A DNA stretch of 64,000 bases, taken from the NCBI RefSeq assembly GCF_030268685.1, contig NZ_BSRQ01000010.1:124001-188000 (forward strand). The letters are read 5' to 3'. The notes beneath the pieces were generated by a model. That model made no database searches. It had not been told where the DNA came from and was given only the letters and a program-made list of their open reading frames with translations. Positions 36,848 through 44,003 of this stretch are shown here, piece by piece. The stretch comes from Microtetraspora sp. NBRC 13810. GTDB taxonomy: Bacteria; Actinomycetota; Actinomycetes; Streptosporangiales; Streptosporangiaceae. The position numbers were made by a program, and so were the translations under genes. Each line of letters begins with the position of its first letter. Within the stretch, counting starts at the first letter, position 1.

Positions 36848-37842
36848 GCGACGTCCTCCTTCACACCGGCCGGCCGGGGCAGCGTGGCCAGCGGCGGCCT
36901 CTCCGCGACGCTCACGTCGTGCCAGGTCGCCTGGCGGTCCGGGGCGAACTGGAGCAGGCCGGTCGAGGGCGGCTCGGAGGTGACGATCCGTCCCTGCCGT
37001 TCCAGCCGCGACCAGGCGGTCAGGATGATCTGCCCGGCCATCCTGCCCAGCGCGGTGGTGGACTGGTGGCTGTGCTCGCGGGAGCCCAGGTCGACCTGGG
37101 CCATCGCGTCGAGCCCGATCGTCTCCAGGAGGTCGACGAGGAGGCCGAACTCCACGCCGTACTCGGTGGCGAACGGCACCCGTTCCAGGGCGGTGCGCCG
37201 GGCCGCGTACTCGCCGCCGAGCGGCTGGACGAAACCCGCCAGCTCGGGCCAGTAGAGGTTGAGCAGCGGCCGGGCCACCAGCTCGGTGACCCGGCCGCCG
37301 GCGCCGCGCTGGACGGTGCCGTCGGGACCGGTGTAGGGGCGTTCGTAGGCGCCCTTGACGAACTGGATCCGCGGGTCGGTGAGCAGCGGGCCGAGCAGCC
37401 CCGAGATGAAGTGCGCGCCGAAGTTGCGCACGTCCGAGTCTGCGAACACGACCACGTCGCCGGTCGTGGCGGCGAGGCCCTTCCACAGCGCCTCGCCCTT
37501 GCCGGACAGCGGGGGCAGCTCGGGCAGCACCTGGTCCTGGTGCACGACGCGGGCCCCCGCGGCGGCGGCGCGGGCGGCGGTGGCGTCGGTGGAGCGGGAG
37601 TCGACCACGAGGATCTCGTCCACGAGCGGGACGGCCTCCACGAGGTCTCGGCGGATGATGGAGACGATCTCCCCCACCGTGCGCTCCTCGTCGCGGGCGG
37701 GCAGGACCACGCTGACCGTGGTGGGCCCCTTGGCGAGGAGCAGGGCGTCCAGGGGCCAGTCGACCGCGGTGCTGCTGTGCGGTCCGAGCCAGTCCTGCAC
37801 GCGGGCCGGGTCTCGGGCGTCCCGGCCAGTGTAGGTCTCCAT
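36844..37842 (-). CDS. gpgS: glucosyl-3-phosphoglycerate synthase GpgS
   Basis: A 332-residue GT81 (GT-A fold) enzyme that transfers glucose from an NDP donor to 3-phosphoglycerate, the first step to glucosylglycerate and methylglucose lipopolysaccharide. Matches to the mycobacterial enzyme include VSVVLPARDEE, GKGEALWKGLAA, the metal DSD motif in VVFADSDVRN, GGRVTELVARPLLN and YGVEFGLLVD. I prefer ATG 37842, preceded by CGGGAG; ATG 37860 in frame would add six residues. It is the first gene of the pair with a GT4 enzyme. No GpgP phosphatase is nearby. Confidence 0.9.
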   Translation of the reverse strand: METYTGRDARDPARVQDWLGPHSSTAVDWPLDALLLAKGPTTVSVVLPARDEERTVGEIVSIIRRDLVEAVPLVDEILVVDSRSTDATAARAAAAGARVVHQDQVLPELPPLSGKGEALWKGLAATTGDVVVFADSDVRNFGAHFISGLLGPLLTDPRIQFVKGAYERPYTGPDGTVQRGAGGRVTELVARPLLNLYWPELAGFVQPLGGEYAARRTALERVPFATEYGVEFGLLVDLLETIGLDAMAQVDLGSREHSHQSTTALGRMAGQIILTAWSRLERQGRIVTSEPPSTGLLQFAPDRQATWHDVSVAERPPLATLPRPAGVKEDVA

Positions 37843-37945
37843 GCGGCTCCCGGTCGTCATCGCATCACGGATGGCACAGCTGCCCTAAATGTAGCCTTTT
37901 GAACATTGTTGTTTGCTCCTGCCTTCCTGAGGCATATGAGGGTGC

Positions 37946-38896
37946 GTGACGCCCATCACCCGTATCGGCATCATCGGGGCCGGCAACGTCGCGGCCCGCC
38001 ACGCCTCCGTCCTCTCCGGCTTCCCCGACGTGACGATCGCGGGAGTCGCCGACACCGATCCGGGCCGGGCCGAGGCGCTCGCCTCCCGGTACGGCGCGCC
38101 CGCCCACCGCTCGCACACCGCCCTGCTGGACGCGGGCGGCCTCGACGCCGTCTACGTCTGCGTGCCGCCGTTCGCGCACGGCGCACCCGAACTCGACGCC
38201 CTGGCCGCCGGGCTGCCGCTCTTCGTGGAGAAGCCGCTCAGCCTCGACCTGGCCACCGCGGAGAAGATCTGCGCCGAGATCGCCAGGCGGGGCCTGGTCT
38301 CGGCCGTGGGCCACCACTGGCGCTACCTGGACACGCTGCGCAGGGCCGCCGCCCTGCTCGACGGCCGCCCGGTACGGCTGGCGCTCGGCCACTGGCTGGA
38401 CAAGGTGCCCCCGGTGCCCTGGTGGCTGCGCAGGGAGATGTCCGGCGGCCAGGTGCTGGAACAGGCCGTGCACGTGCTGGACCTGGCCAGGGTGCTGGTG
38501 GGCGAGGTGGTCATGGTGCACGCCGTACCGGCCGCCAACACGGTGGACGGCGAGATCGACCGGGCCACCGCGGCGGTGCTGAGGTTCGCCGACGGCGCGG
38601 CGGGGCTGCTGGCCGCGAGTTCGCTGGCCGCGCACCGGCACCGGGTCGGCCTGGAGGTGCACACCGACGGCCTGGCGCTGGATCTGAGCGAGACCCGGCT
38701 CGTCGTCAACGGGGACACCGTCATCGAGGATCCCGGGCACGCCAAGACCCTGGTGGACCGGGAGTTCGTGAACGCGGTGCAGGGCCGGCCCGCCGACGTG
38801 CGGGTGCCCTACGAGGAGGCGCTGCGGACGCACCGGCTGGCGCTCGCGGTGGCGCGGTCGGCGGCCGAGGGCGGGCCGGTGACGACCCATGAGTGA
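37946..38896 (+). CDS. Gfo/Idh/MocA family oxidoreductase
   Basis: A 316-residue NAD(P)-dependent sugar or cyclitol dehydrogenase. The N-terminal Rossmann motif is IGIIGAGNVAARH, and the catalytic EKPL is in LFVEKPLSLDL. GHHWRYLDTLRRA and SGGQVLEQAVHVLDLARV (with the family His) fill the substrate domain. GTG 37946 follows GAGGGT. It overlaps the following dehydrogenase by 8 bp. It is the first gene of the plus-strand arm of the carbohydrate catabolic locus and may oxidise a sugar hydroxyl; the substrate is inferred. Confidence 0.88.
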   Translation: MTPITRIGIIGAGNVAARHASVLSGFPDVTIAGVADTDPGRAEALASRYGAPAHRSHTALLDAGGLDAVYVCVPPFAHGAPELDALAAGLPLFVEKPLSLDLATAEKICAEIARRGLVSAVGHHWRYLDTLRRAAALLDGRPVRLALGHWLDKVPPVPWWLRREMSGGQVLEQAVHVLDLARVLVGEVVMVHAVPAANTVDGEIDRATAAVLRFADGAAGLLAASSLAAHRHRVGLEVHTDGLALDLSETRLVVNGDTVIEDPGHAKTLVDREFVNAVQGRPADVRVPYEEALRTHRLALAVARSAAEGGPVTTHE

Positions 38897-40337
38897 GGTC
38901 CTGACGCTCAGCATCGACGCCCCCGGCGAGGTCACCTTCACCGGGGAGCGGCCCGGCGAGGTGCCCGCGGGCGGGCTGCGGGTCGAGACGCTCTACAGCG
39001 GCGTCTCGGCGGGCACCGAGCTGACCTACGTCAAGGGGGCCAACCCCTACCTGACCTCCACCTGGGACCCCGCGCTCGGCCTGTTCCGCCCGGGGCGGCC
39101 GTCGATCGCCTACCCGGTGCGCGGCCTGGGGTACATGCAGGTGGGCAGGGTGGTCGAGCGCCGCACCCGGGCGTTCACCGAGGGCGCGCTGGTCGCCATG
39201 GCGTACGGGCACCGCACGGCGTACGTCGCCGACCCGCTGGACGACCGGATCGTCGAACTGCCGCCCGGCCTCGACCCGCTGCTCGGCATCTACGTCGCGC
39301 ACATGGGCCCCATCTGCGCGAACGGCCTGCTGCACGCCGCCGCCGACCTGTACGGCCCGGCCGTGCGCGACCTCGGCGACGGGGTGCGCGGGCGGCGGGT
39401 CGCGGTCACCGGCGCCGGGGTGGTCGGGCTGCTGGTGGCGTCGTTCGCGATCGATCGCGGCGCGGCCGAGGTCGTGGTGGTGGACGAGACGCCCGGCCGG
39501 CTGCGGATCGCCGAGGCGCTCGGCGCCCTGACGCTGCCCGCCCAGGAGGAACCGGAGGTGGTGCTGAAACGGCGCTGGCGGCACGGCCCGGCCGACCGCG
39601 GCGCCGACGTGGTCTTCCAGTGCCGCGGTCAGGCCAGGGCGCTGGCGACCGCGCTGAAGCTGCTGCGGCCCCAGGGCACCGTGATCGACCTGGCCTTCTA
39701 CACCCGGGGCGCCGAGGAGGTGCGCCTGGGCGAGGAGTTCCACCACAACGGGCTGAGCCTGCGCTGCGCCCAGATCGGCAGGGTGCCCCGCGGGCTGGCG
39801 CACGCCTGGGACCGGGAACGGCTCTCGCACGAGGCGATCGGGCTGCTGCTGCGGCGCGGGGACCTGCTACGCGAACACGTGATCACCGACGTGGTGGACT
39901 TCGGCCTGGCGCCCGCCCTGCTGTGCGACCTGGCCGCCGGACGCCGCCAGGCGATCCAGGCGGTCCTGCGCCAGGACGTCCAGCACCAGGGCGGCCGACC
40001 AGCTGAAGTCGTGACTGCCGTGCCCCGTGAAGGCGAAGGGGTCGAAGTACTCCCGCATGCCCGCCTGGGTGACCGCCCGGACCATGCCGTCGGCGAGCGG
40101 CGCGGCGAGGTCCGGCCGGTACCGGCGCAGGCCCCGCCAGACCAGCCAGGTGAGGTTGATCCAGCTCGGCCCGCGCCAGTAGCGCGCGACGTCGAAGCCC
40201 GGCGCGCCGGGCGCGAGGCTCGGCAGCAGGCCGCGCTTGATCTCGAACCGGTCGGCCGCGGTGGCCGCCAGCTCGGCGGCGACCTCGGCCGGCAGGCCGG
40301 GCAGCAGCAGCGGGGTCAGCCCGGCGGCGCTGCCTGA
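38889..40337 (+). CDS. zinc-type medium-chain dehydrogenase with an abnormal 3' extension
   Basis: A medium-chain dehydrogenase/reductase-like protein whose homologous part is about residues 1-362: GGLRVETLYSGVSAGTELTY at the start, VAVTGAGVVGLLVASFAIDRG as nucleotide motif, and GEEFHHNGLSLRCAQIG. It is a paralogue of the minus-strand dehydrogenase at 41968-43002, which ends where this homology ends (near 39975). No stop codon occurs there; the frame runs about 120 further codons as antisense of the convergent glycosidase gene, giving a Gln/Arg/Pro-rich tail. The predicted 482-residue length is therefore aberrant. Function is likely sugar oxidation or reduction with the upstream Gfo/Idh/MocA enzyme. 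Confidence 0.82.
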   Translation: MSEVLTLSIDAPGEVTFTGERPGEVPAGGLRVETLYSGVSAGTELTYVKGANPYLTSTWDPALGLFRPGRPSIAYPVRGLGYMQVGRVVERRTRAFTEGALVAMAYGHRTAYVADPLDDRIVELPPGLDPLLGIYVAHMGPICANGLLHAAADLYGPAVRDLGDGVRGRRVAVTGAGVVGLLVASFAIDRGAAEVVVVDETPGRLRIAEALGALTLPAQEEPEVVLKRRWRHGPADRGADVVFQCRGQARALATALKLLRPQGTVIDLAFYTRGAEEVRLGEEFHHNGLSLRCAQIGRVPRGLAHAWDRERLSHEAIGLLLRRGDLLREHVITDVVDFGLAPALLCDLAAGRRQAIQAVLRQDVQHQGGRPAEVVTAVPREGEGVEVLPHARLGDRPDHAVGERRGEVRPVPAQAPPDQPGEVDPARPAPVARDVEARRAGREARQQAALDLEPVGRGGRQLGGDLGRQAGQQQRGQPGGAA

Positions 40338-41186
40338 GCGCAGCAGGCGGCCGGTGAGCACGTCCCTGGCGTGGAAGAGGCCGTCGGCGTAGAGGTGCTC
40401 GACCATCGCCCGGGTGACGGCCGCCGCTTCCCTGCGGTGCGGCTCCGGGTCCAGGCCGCAGACGCCGGCGATCTTCGCGAGGGCGGTCTCCGCCGTGCCG
40501 TACGCGGCGTTGAACAGCGGGTCCTCGACCTGGAACGCGCCGGCGCGCCGGTAGCCGGTGTCGCGGTAGGCGGCGGCCAGCGAGATGTAGCGCTCGTAGT
40601 CGGCGTCGGTGGGCCGCTCGTCGGCGCTGACGTGCGCGAGGTCCCGGCGTCGCGCGCCGAGCGGCGCCGGGGGCACGGCGGCCAGCGGCTCGTCCCAGGC
40701 CGGGCTGTTGTCCATGCCCGACTCCCACGGGTGCACGATCGACACCAGCCCGCGGGCGGAACGCCGCGCGGCGCGCAGGAACTCCTGCTGGGCGACGAGA
40801 CGCGGGTAGATCCGGCGCAGGAACGCCGGGTCGGGGTCGGCCAGGTGCACCCGCCAGGCGGCCGGCGCGTGCACCGGCGGCTGCACGATCCCGGAGGTCG
40901 CGGCCCCGGCGGGCGCGCGGACGCCCCAGAAGGCCGGGCCGGGGAAGTAGGCGCCCTCGGGCACGGCCGGGTTGAACACGATGTGCGGCACCCGGCCGTC
41001 CCGCCACTGCGCCCCGAACAGCGCGAGCAGCTCGGTCCGCGCCCGGCGTGGCGCCCAGTGGGCGTTGCCGATCGCGACGAACGCGGAGTCCCAGCTCCAC
41101 TGGTGGGGGTAGAGCCGCCGGGAGGGGACGGTGTGGTCGGCGTCCCAGTTGGCCACGAGGACCCGCACGGCGTCACGCCGGATCAC
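39867..41186 (-). CDS. GH63/MGH-like glycoside hydrolase with a read-through 3' end
   Basis: A 439-residue (alpha/alpha)6 glycosidase domain related to the GH63 / mannosylglycerate-hydrolase-like group. YPHQWSWDSAFVAIGNAHW holds the catalytic-site Trp-Asp pair, and WESGMDNSPAWDEPL, YWRGPSWINLTWLVWRGL and GHGSHDFSWSAALVLDVLA are family blocks. Homology ends near DVLAQD (about 39975), after which ~35 residues are antisense of the convergent dehydrogenase. The start is GTG 41186, overlapping the isomerase stop (GTGA). It is cytoplasmic, with no signal, so it would act on an imported oligosaccharide or glycoside. Confidence 0.85.
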   Translation of the reverse strand: MIRRDAVRVLVANWDADHTVPSRRLYPHQWSWDSAFVAIGNAHWAPRRARTELLALFGAQWRDGRVPHIVFNPAVPEGAYFPGPAFWGVRAPAGAATSGIVQPPVHAPAAWRVHLADPDPAFLRRIYPRLVAQQEFLRAARRSARGLVSIVHPWESGMDNSPAWDEPLAAVPPAPLGARRRDLAHVSADERPTDADYERYISLAAAYRDTGYRRAGAFQVEDPLFNAAYGTAETALAKIAGVCGLDPEPHRREAAAVTRAMVEHLYADGLFHARDVLTGRLLRSGSAAGLTPLLLPGLPAEVAAELAATAADRFEIKRGLLPSLAPGAPGFDVARYWRGPSWINLTWLVWRGLRRYRPDLAAPLADGMVRAVTQAGMREYFDPFAFTGHGSHDFSWSAALVLDVLAQDRLDRLAASGGQVAQQGGRQAEVHHVGDHVFA

Positions 41187-41968
41187 AGGAACTTCCTGAC
41201 GAAGGCGGCGGTCTGCGGGAGGGCCGTGCGGGGGTCGCCGCGCAGCCGGCACTCCAGGGCGAGGTAACCGTCGTAGCCGATCGCGTCGAGGGTGGCGAGC
41301 TGCGCCGCCCAGTCGAGGTGGCCGGTGCCCGGCTGGTTGCGGTTGGACTCGCTGATCTGCATGTGCGCGAGGTACGGCGCGGCCCGCGCGAGGGAGCGGC
41401 AGGGGTCGTCCTCCTCGATGTTCATGTGGTAGGTGTCGCCGGCGACCCTGATCGAGTCCGCCGAGCAGTACTCCACGGCCTCGGCGAGGGTGTTGACCAT
41501 GTGGTTCTCGTACCGGTTGAGCGGCTCCAGCATGATGAGCACGCCTTCCCTCGCGGCGTGCTCGCCCAGCTCGCCGAGCGCGTCGGCGAGCACCTCCCTG
41601 TCCTCCTCCGCGGAGCGCGGCGGCTCGAAGGGCGGCAGCCGGCGGGAGAACTGCCCCCACGACGCGGGGGTCATCACGCCGAGCCCGCCCAGCTCGCCGA
41701 TCACCGTGAGCTGTGAGCGGAGCTGCGTCACCGCGTCCCTGCGCCGTCCGGCGTCGAAGTCGCCGATGAAGTGCGTCATGTCCACGCACACGGTGGGCAT
41801 CACGACCCCGTCGGCGAGCGCCCGGCGCAGCTCGGGCAGCCGCCCGGCGAAGTGCAGGTCGCCCTTGCCGCGCAGCTCTATGGCGTCGAACCCGGCCTCG
41901 ACGGCGAACTCGAACTTCTCCTGCAACGTCTCGCCCGGCAGCAGTTGCTCCTGCGCGGCCAGCCTCAT
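41183..41968 (-). CDS. sugar phosphate isomerase/epimerase-like TIM barrel
   Basis: A 261-residue xylose-isomerase-like (AP endonuclease 2 fold) protein. Metal and substrate residues are expected in FDAIELRGKGD, VLIMLEPLNRYENH, RVAGDTYHMNIEED and YLALECRL, which carry the Glu/Asp/His set of the family. ATG 41968 overlaps the stop of the upstream dehydrogenase (ATGA), and its stop overlaps the glycosidase GTG, so the three minus-strand genes are tightly coupled. Members isomerise or epimerise sugars, or open oxidised glycosides; the reaction here is not determined. Confidence 0.88.
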   Translation of the reverse strand: MRLAAQEQLLPGETLQEKFEFAVEAGFDAIELRGKGDLHFAGRLPELRRALADGVVMPTVCVDMTHFIGDFDAGRRRDAVTQLRSQLTVIGELGGLGVMTPASWGQFSRRLPPFEPPRSAEEDREVLADALGELGEHAAREGVLIMLEPLNRYENHMVNTLAEAVEYCSADSIRVAGDTYHMNIEEDDPCRSLARAAPYLAHMQISESNRNQPGTGHLDWAAQLATLDAIGYDGYLALECRLRGDPRTALPQTAAFVRKFL

Positions 41969-43002
41969 CACGGCTCCTCCCCGAACCTGAAGACGAGTTG
42001 CAGCACCTCGGCCGGACGCCGGTCGAGCAGCTCGAACGCCTCGGCCGCCCGGTCCGCCCCCACCACGTGGCTGACCAGCGCGCCGGTGTCCACCTCGCCC
42101 TTGAGCGCGAGGTCCATGAAGGTGCGCTGGAGGCGCTCGACATCCCACCGGTTGGCGAGCCAGGTGGCCACCCCGCCGATCTGGGAGGAGACGAGCTGCA
42201 CCTGGTTGTGGTGGAACTCCTCGCCGAGCCGCAGCCCGATCCCGTCGCCCTGGTAGAAGCCGGCGGCGACGACCCTGCCGCCCCTGCGCACGGTCCTGAT
42301 CGCCTCGTGCAGGCCCTGGTTGGTGCCGCTCAGCTCGATAGCGAGGTCCGTGCCCTCGACCCGCTTGCGGACGAACTCCGCCACCGACCCGCACCTGACG
42401 TCGAACGCCTCGGCCGCGCCGAACCGCCGGGCGAGTTCGAGACGGGCGGGGATCACGTCGGCGGCGACCACCCCGGCGCCGCTGAGCACGGCGAGGCGGG
42501 TGGCGAGCAGCCCGATGACGCCCTGCCCGAAGATCGCGACCTCGTCGCCGAGGTGCACGTCCGCGGCGTGCACGGCGTTGAGCGCGATGGCGCCCACCCT
42601 GGCGAAGACGCCGGTCAGGGGATCGGCGCCGGGCGGCAGCACGTGCCCGGCCACCTTGTCCGCGGGCAGCACGGCCTCCGCCCGGTGGCCCCACACGCCC
42701 CACACGAGGCTGCCGATCGGCGGGCCGCCGACGTCGGGGGCGGCCTCGACCACCTCGCCGACCTCCTGGTAGCCCCAGCCCGCCAGCGGGTAGGAGTGGG
42801 TCTGGCCCTCGGTGAAGAGCCTGTGCTCGGAGTCCCACCGCCGGCTGAGGTAGGGGTTGGTGCCGCGGTAGGCGGTCAGCTCGGTGCCCGCGGAAACGCC
42901 CGAGTAGATCGTCCTGACCCGGACGCAGCCGGGCTCAAGCTCGACGGGTGGCTCCGTCCGGAGGCTGACGACACCGGGCCCTTCAATCGTGATGACGCGC
43001 AT
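41968..43002 (-). CDS. zinc-type medium-chain dehydrogenase
   Basis: A 344-residue medium-chain dehydrogenase-like protein, paralogous to the one at 38889: RVRTIYSGVSAGTELTAYRGTNPY, EVAIFGQGVIGLLATRLA, LGEEFHHNQVQLVSSQIGG, ending RPAEVLQLVFRFGEEP. ATG 43002 is first in a three-gene coupled operon with the isomerase and glycosidase, and is divergent from the second isomerase and ABC importer across 113 bp carrying palindromes. Probably oxidises or reduces the imported sugar. Confidence 0.9.
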   Translation of the reverse strand: MRVITIEGPGVVSLRTEPPVELEPGCVRVRTIYSGVSAGTELTAYRGTNPYLSRRWDSEHRLFTEGQTHSYPLAGWGYQEVGEVVEAAPDVGGPPIGSLVWGVWGHRAEAVLPADKVAGHVLPPGADPLTGVFARVGAIALNAVHAADVHLGDEVAIFGQGVIGLLATRLAVLSGAGVVAADVIPARLELARRFGAAEAFDVRCGSVAEFVRKRVEGTDLAIELSGTNQGLHEAIRTVRRGGRVVAAGFYQGDGIGLRLGEEFHHNQVQLVSSQIGGVATWLANRWDVERLQRTFMDLALKGEVDTGALVSHVVGADRAAEAFELLDRRPAEVLQLVFRFGEEP

Positions 43003-43010
43003 GTCCCACA

Positions 43011-43090
43011 CTTAAGCTTATTGATCAGACAAAAGATGTGAACTTAAGTTCGTTCCCAACGCGTTACCTATGTCAAGAACACTTATAAGT
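43011..43090. promoter_or_regulatory. divergent operator region with three CTTAAG/CTTATAAG palindromes
   Basis: The 113-bp AT-rich gap between divergent sugar operons contains ACTTAAGCTT (43010-43019), the perfect 12-bp palindrome GAACTTAAGTTC (43040-43051) and the perfect 10-bp palindrome ACTTATAAGT (43081-43090). All share an ACTTA half-site. They are likely sites for one repressor controlling both directions, most plausibly the ROK protein at 47159. Confidence 0.7.
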
Positions 43091-43115
43091 CTACGACTTC
43101 TAGCGGAGGCAGTGC

Positions 43116-44003
43116 ATGAAGCTGGGTTTTCTCACCGCGTGTCTTCCCGGTGAGGATCTCGCGGACATCGCGAAATGGGCCGCGGGGCGGGGTTTCGAGG
43201 CTCTGGAGGTCGCGGCCTGGCCGGAAAAAGATGGCGTAAATCACATCAGGGTAGATTCTTTCGACCAGCCGGAACGCGCCCGGGTCGCGAAGATATTCGA
43301 AGAGACGGGCCTGACCCTCTCTTCACTCGCCTACTACGAGAACAACCTGCACCCCGGCCGGGGCCCCGCGGTCAACGACCACCTGCGCCGGTGCATCGAC
43401 GCCGCCGCCGAGCTGGGCTGCCCGACGGTGGGCACCTTCGTCGGCCGCGACCCGGGCCTGCCGGTGGCCGACAACCTCCGGCTCGCCGAGGAGGTCTTCC
43501 CGCCCCTGGTGGAGTACGCCGGGCAGCGCGGCGTCGCCGTCGTCATCGAGAACTGCGTGATGAAGAGCTGGCACCCCGACGGCTACCCGGGCAACCTCGC
43601 CTACTCCCCCGAGCTGTGGGAGTGGATGTTCACCCTCGGGCTCAAGCTCAACTTCGACCCCTCCCACCTGGTCGCCCTCGGCATCGACCCGGTCGCGGCG
43701 GCGGTGCCGTACATCCCGCACATGGCGCACGTGCAGGCCAAGGACACCCAGATCCTGCCGGGGACGCTGGACCGGTACGGCTTCTACGGGCCGGTGAGCG
43801 GGGAGAAGGGGTGGTACCGGTTCCGGGTGCCGGGGCGCGGGCTGGTGGACTGGACCGGGCTGGTCGACGCGCTGCACGAGGGCGGCTACGAGGGCGTGGT
43901 GTCGGTCGAGCACGAGGATCCCGTCTGGAGCGGCACGCCCGAGCGGGTGCGCGCCGGGCTGGGGATCGCGCACGACACGTTGCGCGGGCTCGTCTCCGGG
44001 TAA
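43116..44003 (+). CDS. sugar phosphate isomerase/epimerase-like TIM barrel
   Basis: A 295-residue AP endonuclease 2-fold protein. FEALEVAAWPEKDG, VVIENCVMKSWHPDGYPGN, KLNFDPSHLVALGIDP and YEGVVSVEHEDPVW supply the metal-binding Glu, Asp/His and Glu. It differs clearly from the minus-strand isomerase, so two distinct reactions are likely. ATG 43116 follows GCGGAGG. First gene of the plus-strand importer operon. Family members in such loci include hydroxypyruvate, inosose and 3-keto-sugar enzymes. Confidence 0.9.
   Translation: MKLGFLTACLPGEDLADIAKWAAGRGFEALEVAAWPEKDGVNHIRVDSFDQPERARVAKIFEETGLTLSSLAYYENNLHPGRGPAVNDHLRRCIDAAAELGCPTVGTFVGRDPGLPVADNLRLAEEVFPPLVEYAGQRGVAVVIENCVMKSWHPDGYPGNLAYSPELWEWMFTLGLKLNFDPSHLVALGIDPVAAAVPYIPHMAHVQAKDTQILPGTLDRYGFYGPVSGEKGWYRFRVPGRGLVDWTGLVDALHEGGYEGVVSVEHEDPVWSGTPERVRAGLGIAHDTLRGLVSG

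Follow-up and report, generated by a model that had tools for sequence, protein, structure and literature searches.

An old convergent overlap between a dehydrogenase and a glycosidase gene, very probably lengthened by one recent stop-codon mutation in Microtetraspora sp. NBRC 13810

Two convergent sugar-metabolism genes of Microtetraspora sp. NBRC 13810, one encoding a dehydrogenase (D) and the other a glycosidase, read into each other for 471 bp, and the end of each protein is encoded by the antisense of its partner. How did two genes come to terminate inside each other? A previous reading, made from the letters of the DNA alone (the sequence-only reading), held that a deletion had joined two tail-to-tail genes, taking out the intergenic region and both stops. 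Here, the window (the whole stretch of 64,000 nucleotides that was analyzed) was compared with relatives. The alignments argue that an old, conserved convergent overlap was very probably lengthened by one recent stop-codon mutation.

Both open reading frames are present, and the convergent overlap of 39867-40337 on opposite strands is confirmed (Table 1). Its phase is 123:321, with codons in register and base 3 of the D codon opposite base 1 of the glycosidase codon. The conserved core of D comprises residues 1 to about 365, with family homology ending near residue 361-365, and that of the glycosidase ends near residue 396-404. Both ends fall around 39970-39990, in agreement with the sequence-only reading, which had placed the loss of both homologies near 39975. 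In a profile search the glycosidase matched PF22422 with 342 bits, above the cut-off of that family; against the glucosylglycerate hydrolase equivalog NF047898 it scored 299 bits, below the curated cut-off of 550. The glycosidase gene starts with GTG at 41186, where it shares a GTGA with the isomerase gene upstream. The extended D gene ends at the next in-frame stop, which lies within the opposite gene, as the stop-codon-mutation class of overlaps requires. No other lesion was found in the D or glycosidase genes of the window. An ORF of 128 aa, in another frame of the plus strand, occupies 39620-40006.

Table 1. Genes, stops and overlapping segments at the junction (window coordinates)
Feature	Position	Strand	Remarks
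Gfo/Idh/MocA oxidoreductase	37946..38896	+	adjoins D in outgroups as well as in the overlap clade
Dehydrogenase D	38889..40337	+	zinc-type dehydrogenase, PF00107; 482 aa
Glycosidase	39867..41186	-	MGH1-like glycoside hydrolase, PF22422, GH63 clan
Glycosidase stop TAG	39867..39869	-	reads CTA on the plus strand, the D Leu-327 codon
Old glycosidase tail	39870..39971	-	34 codons, antisense to D
Ancestral-type convergent overlap, 132 bp	39867..39998	.	identical size in 52 of 58 other loci
Lost D stop	39996..39998	+	CGA in the window; most other loci have TGA at the homologous site
New read-through part of D	39999..40334	+	112 codons, antisense to the glycosidase
Current D stop TGA	40335..40337	+	inside the glycosidase coding sequence
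Sugar-isomerase-like TIM barrel, PF01261	41183..41968	-	operon partner of the glycosidase
D2 dehydrogenase, D paralogue	41968..43011	-	first gene of the glycosidase operon

The search for relatives covered the window's family and GTDB genome contigs, plus stretches from the remaining family members; one genome among those searched represented the window's genus. With the window included, 59 distinct overlapping loci were found, all in Streptosporangiaceae (Nonomuraea, Sphaerisporangium, Thermoactinospora, Thermocatellispora, Spongiactinospora, Streptosporangium sp. KLBMP 9127 and other genera). The overlap measured 132 bp in 52 of the 58 other loci, and D ended there with TGA; it measured 111 bp in three and 123 bp in two loci, with TAG as the D stop in both groups, and 156 bp in a single locus that ends D with TGA. 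In orthologues of the 132-bp type the D stop corresponds to codon 370 of the window's D, and the ordinary length of D is about 369 aa. Conservation in 52 loci of one clade places the 132-bp state among conserved long convergent overlaps; the 471-bp state is found in the window alone among the 59 loci. In these relatives D has an earlier end (TGA at the 39996-39998 site in most loci), and the glycosidase keeps its long tail.

In the D tree, the overlapping loci formed one clade (support 100/99), and the sole non-overlapping row inside it, L068, comes from a contig whose sequence breaks off at the junction. The 111-bp type was sister to the remaining overlap loci, and the window was nested with an intact relative, L002. 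The D branch of the window was of ordinary length (0.20 vs. 0.25 in its neighbour), so that there is no sign of D decay in the tree. In Nonomuraea pusilla (L067, 7149-7201), a 24-bp insertion that is in frame for both genes gives the 156-bp overlap, and it looks like a tandem duplication. In L156 and L159 (Plantactinospora endophytica, G366:C3), the glycosidase match falls in two adjacent pieces, possibly by a frameshift.

Each stop is nested in the partner gene. In every locus, D codon 327 is the codon opposite the glycosidase stop (CTA in 58, TTA in one), and it is Ile ATC in 32 of 37 outgroup dehydrogenases. CTA and TTA together make up 0.56% of the Leu codons in the rest of D vs. 59/59 at the glycosidase stop, a count over loci that are related by descent and not one of 59 independent events. 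That these rare codons have been retained over such wide divergence indicates that the glycosidase stop is under purifying selection. In turn, the usual TGA of D lies opposite a TCA that encodes Ser within the glycosidase motif FSW-S-AA; elsewhere in the glycosidase, TCA accounts for 0.9% and TCG for 30% of the Ser codons. The same site is Thr (ACC/ACG) in those unlinked outgroup glycosidases with a readable site. The Thr to Ser change may predate TGA, since the sister locus L073 already has Ser at this site, as TCC.

Chance alone was rejected as the origin of the 132-bp part on the number of loci (59), the size range (111-156 bp in the 58 others), the stop position and the rare codons; the length of the 339-bp extension is as chance would give after loss of the D stop. 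On a fuller reading, which we put forward tentatively and consider unlikely, the two genes are reciprocally locked: each would have supplied the stop of its partner for most of the evolution of the clade, forcing the rare CTA and TCA codons and probably the Ile to Leu and Thr to Ser replacements, perhaps with the 3′ antisense overlap coordinating two sugar operons, and the window would show one lock breaking.

The products of D2 and D are 41% identical, and the facing operons thus each carry one of two related dehydrogenases. GC content goes down to about 61% at 42750-43500, between the divergent D2 and 43116 isomerase genes, and this low-GC stretch is probably a shared promoter region of the two. 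A scan of 37800-43200 returned no intrinsic-terminator-like sites, which is weak evidence in GC-rich actinobacteria, and no sigma-70-type promoters, which is weak evidence in this GC range. The third-position diversity of D was 0.40 inside the overlap vs. 0.35 elsewhere in the overlap clade, and 0.44 vs. 0.42 in the outgroups. No extra constraint on the wobble positions of D from the glycosidase tail was detected in this crude test, in which related sequences were pooled.

Pairing of the transcripts of the two operons is possible, since long overlap of the 3′ ends has been described for convergent gene pairs that have no terminator (PMC7154746). We consider it quite unlikely that the overlap has been kept for this purpose, with both operons coupled through 3′ pairing and RNase III and a longer overlap strengthening the coupling. 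Its retention in 59 loci of one clade and the lack of a terminator-like site in the scanned interval would fit such a role, but the wobble diversity of the overlap is not reduced, the terminator scan carries little weight at this GC content, and neutral lock-in would be enough, since either gene would acquire a long tail if it lost its stop (381 codons in the case of the window's glycosidase).

The lengthening of the old overlap is explained by a single base. At the site of the D stop, the window reads CAG GGC GGC CGA CCA GCT GAA GTC vs. GAG CGC GGC TGA CCA GCT GAA GTC in L002, and the alignment is gap-free. The lost stop is one substitution from a sense codon and the orthologues end earlier, as in overlaps assigned to stop-codon mutation. 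On the glycosidase strand, the T-to-C change turns TCA into TCG, which is synonymous and toward the common codon; the TCG Ser of the window is the relic expected after losing a former TCA. The TGA at this site has been lost at least twice, since N. dietziae (L032, 7090-7101) has CGA as in the window together with a TAG three codons upstream, and in a relative, L169, D ends at the same early TAG. Only the window, among the 59 loci, has an uncompensated loss without a nearby replacement stop. D gained as many as 112 codons because antisense stops are nearly absent at a GC content of 75%. In the overlap clade, roughly one glycosidase codon in 1766 reads as a stop on the opposite strand, and the next in-frame stop past the normal D stop is 71-608 codons off in relatives. 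The glycosidase core of the window has a single TCA/TTA/CTA codon, a TCA, opposite the present D stop. The peptide LGDRPDHAVGER is encoded in the read-through tail.

Alternatively, CGA could be a sequencing, assembly or minority-strain error, and the true state TGA with the standard 132-bp overlap. The uncompensated loss is known from a single draft genome of 114 contigs, and 3′ extensions confined to single genomes have been flagged as frequent errors (PMC2478687). An error is nevertheless very unlikely, because the change is silent for the glycosidase and goes from its rare to its common Ser codon, N. dietziae has the same change plus a replacement stop, and neither gene shows another lesion.

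In a structure model, D was confident to about residue 361, whereas pLDDT was around 30 for most of residues 365-482, where one short helix was modelled. The glycosidase model was weaker overall, with pLDDT around 29 for residues 410-438. Both tails are predicted to be disordered. The length of the glycosidase tail is stable, at 34 codons in most loci, and a few of its residues are invariant; those examined are explained by the conserved codons of D itself. It is extremely unlikely that the antisense-coded tails are functional protein segments under selection: constant length and the few invariant residues of the glycosidase tail would be expected of such segments, but the modelled confidence is low, the invariant residues derive from D, and the long D tail is limited to one genome. 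A selected glycosidase tail was rejected, as D wobble diversity in the overlap is not lower in either the overlap clade or the outgroups. A selected chimera found no support in the same diversity values or in the predicted disorder. The tails are most likely tolerated, and the stops kept because their loss adds a long antisense tail.

The outgroups place the origin of the junction well before the stop-codon mutation. In those examined, the MocA-D pair lies apart from the glycosidase, the synteny being read in limited flanking stretches, and in seven of the outgroup loci fetched the glycosidase gene belongs to an operon of its own, in which D2 and the TIM-barrel gene precede it. Most outgroup glycosidases terminate no more than about 12 residues after the core, and residue 360 is followed by 2 further residues in many of the outgroup D proteins. 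In the 111-bp sister group, the D stop is a TAG at this +2 position and the glycosidase tail is already there; in the 132-bp group, 15-18 bp are missing at the +2 position, TAG included.

We propose that (i) the MocA-D and D2-TIM-glycosidase operons were joined tail to tail in an ancestor of this Streptosporangiaceae clade, with the glycosidase left without its own stop and ending on the antisense of D at CTA (Leu), where outgroups have ATC; (ii) a later in-frame deletion of 15-18 bp would have taken the original stop of D, still TAG in the sister group; (iii) D would then have terminated at TGA, the antisense of the glycosidase Ser codon TCA; and (iv) in the window, as the comparison with relatives shows, TGA became CGA, silently for the glycosidase, adding 112 antisense codons to D. 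The D tail would be a tolerated disordered appendage on an otherwise intact enzyme, and both stops would be maintained by the cost in antisense tail that either loss brings. The ancestral joining and the direction of the 15-18-bp indel are inferred from few sister sequences, and the order of the ancestral steps is read from three of them.

A recent deletion in this lineage that fused tail-to-tail genes and removed both stops would explain why the family homology of the two proteins ends at nearly one position and why intergenic sequence is absent, but it is of negligible probability, being ruled out by the gap-free alignment with relatives at the lost D stop and by the glycosidase tail and stop that 58 loci share. 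The deletion-fusion model survives only as a much older event: the genes sit in separate operons in the outgroups examined, so that a tail-to-tail joining probably lies at the deep origin of the pair, but it did not happen in this genome. The deletion of both stops that the sequence-only reading had placed here did not occur, as the glycosidase stop is present in 58 loci and the D stop went by TGA to CGA. That reading was right that the two genes run into each other as antisense tails; only the long tail of D is new, however, and the glycosidase tail of ~35 codons is old. It had also held that extended tails in orthologues would count against it, and the glycosidase tail is common to 58 other loci.

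Read as an old overlap lengthened by one stop-codon mutation, the locus provides a stepwise record of how a long antisense overlap would arise, be held by nested stops and lengthen by a base change silent for the partner, and it shows why stop loss in GC-rich genomes yields long antisense tails. The loci form a natural series (111, 123, 132, 156 and 471 bp) for asking if 3′ antisense overlap alters expression. If the overlap is neutral, they serve as an example for annotation rules, with a real 132-bp overlap and a private extension to 471 bp.

Point mutation of a stop codon is held to be the commonest source of convergent overlaps (PMC2174442). As in that model, a stop was mutated and D reads through into the opposite gene to the next stop, on opposite strands and in one of the three recognised phases (123:321). 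In contrast to the model, the pair here overlapped already and the mutation only lengthened an old overlap; moreover, the lost stop lay in the coding sequence of the partner, for which the loss was synonymous. A 2008 survey of 178 convergent overlaps of >60 bp classed 54 as putatively true and 124 as 3′-end extensions (PMC2478687). The 132-bp state resembles the former class and the 471-bp state the single-genome 3′ extensions, but here both states occur within one orthologous pair and the intermediate stops are identified. As in the excludon review (PMC7154746), two convergent operons meet with no spacer and with no terminator-like site found between them; unlike the cases reviewed there, the overlap is one of coding sequences rather than of UTRs, and it is known here from the genes alone. 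The case is an unusually well resolved but ordinary example of a known process, the formation of overlaps by stop-codon mutation.
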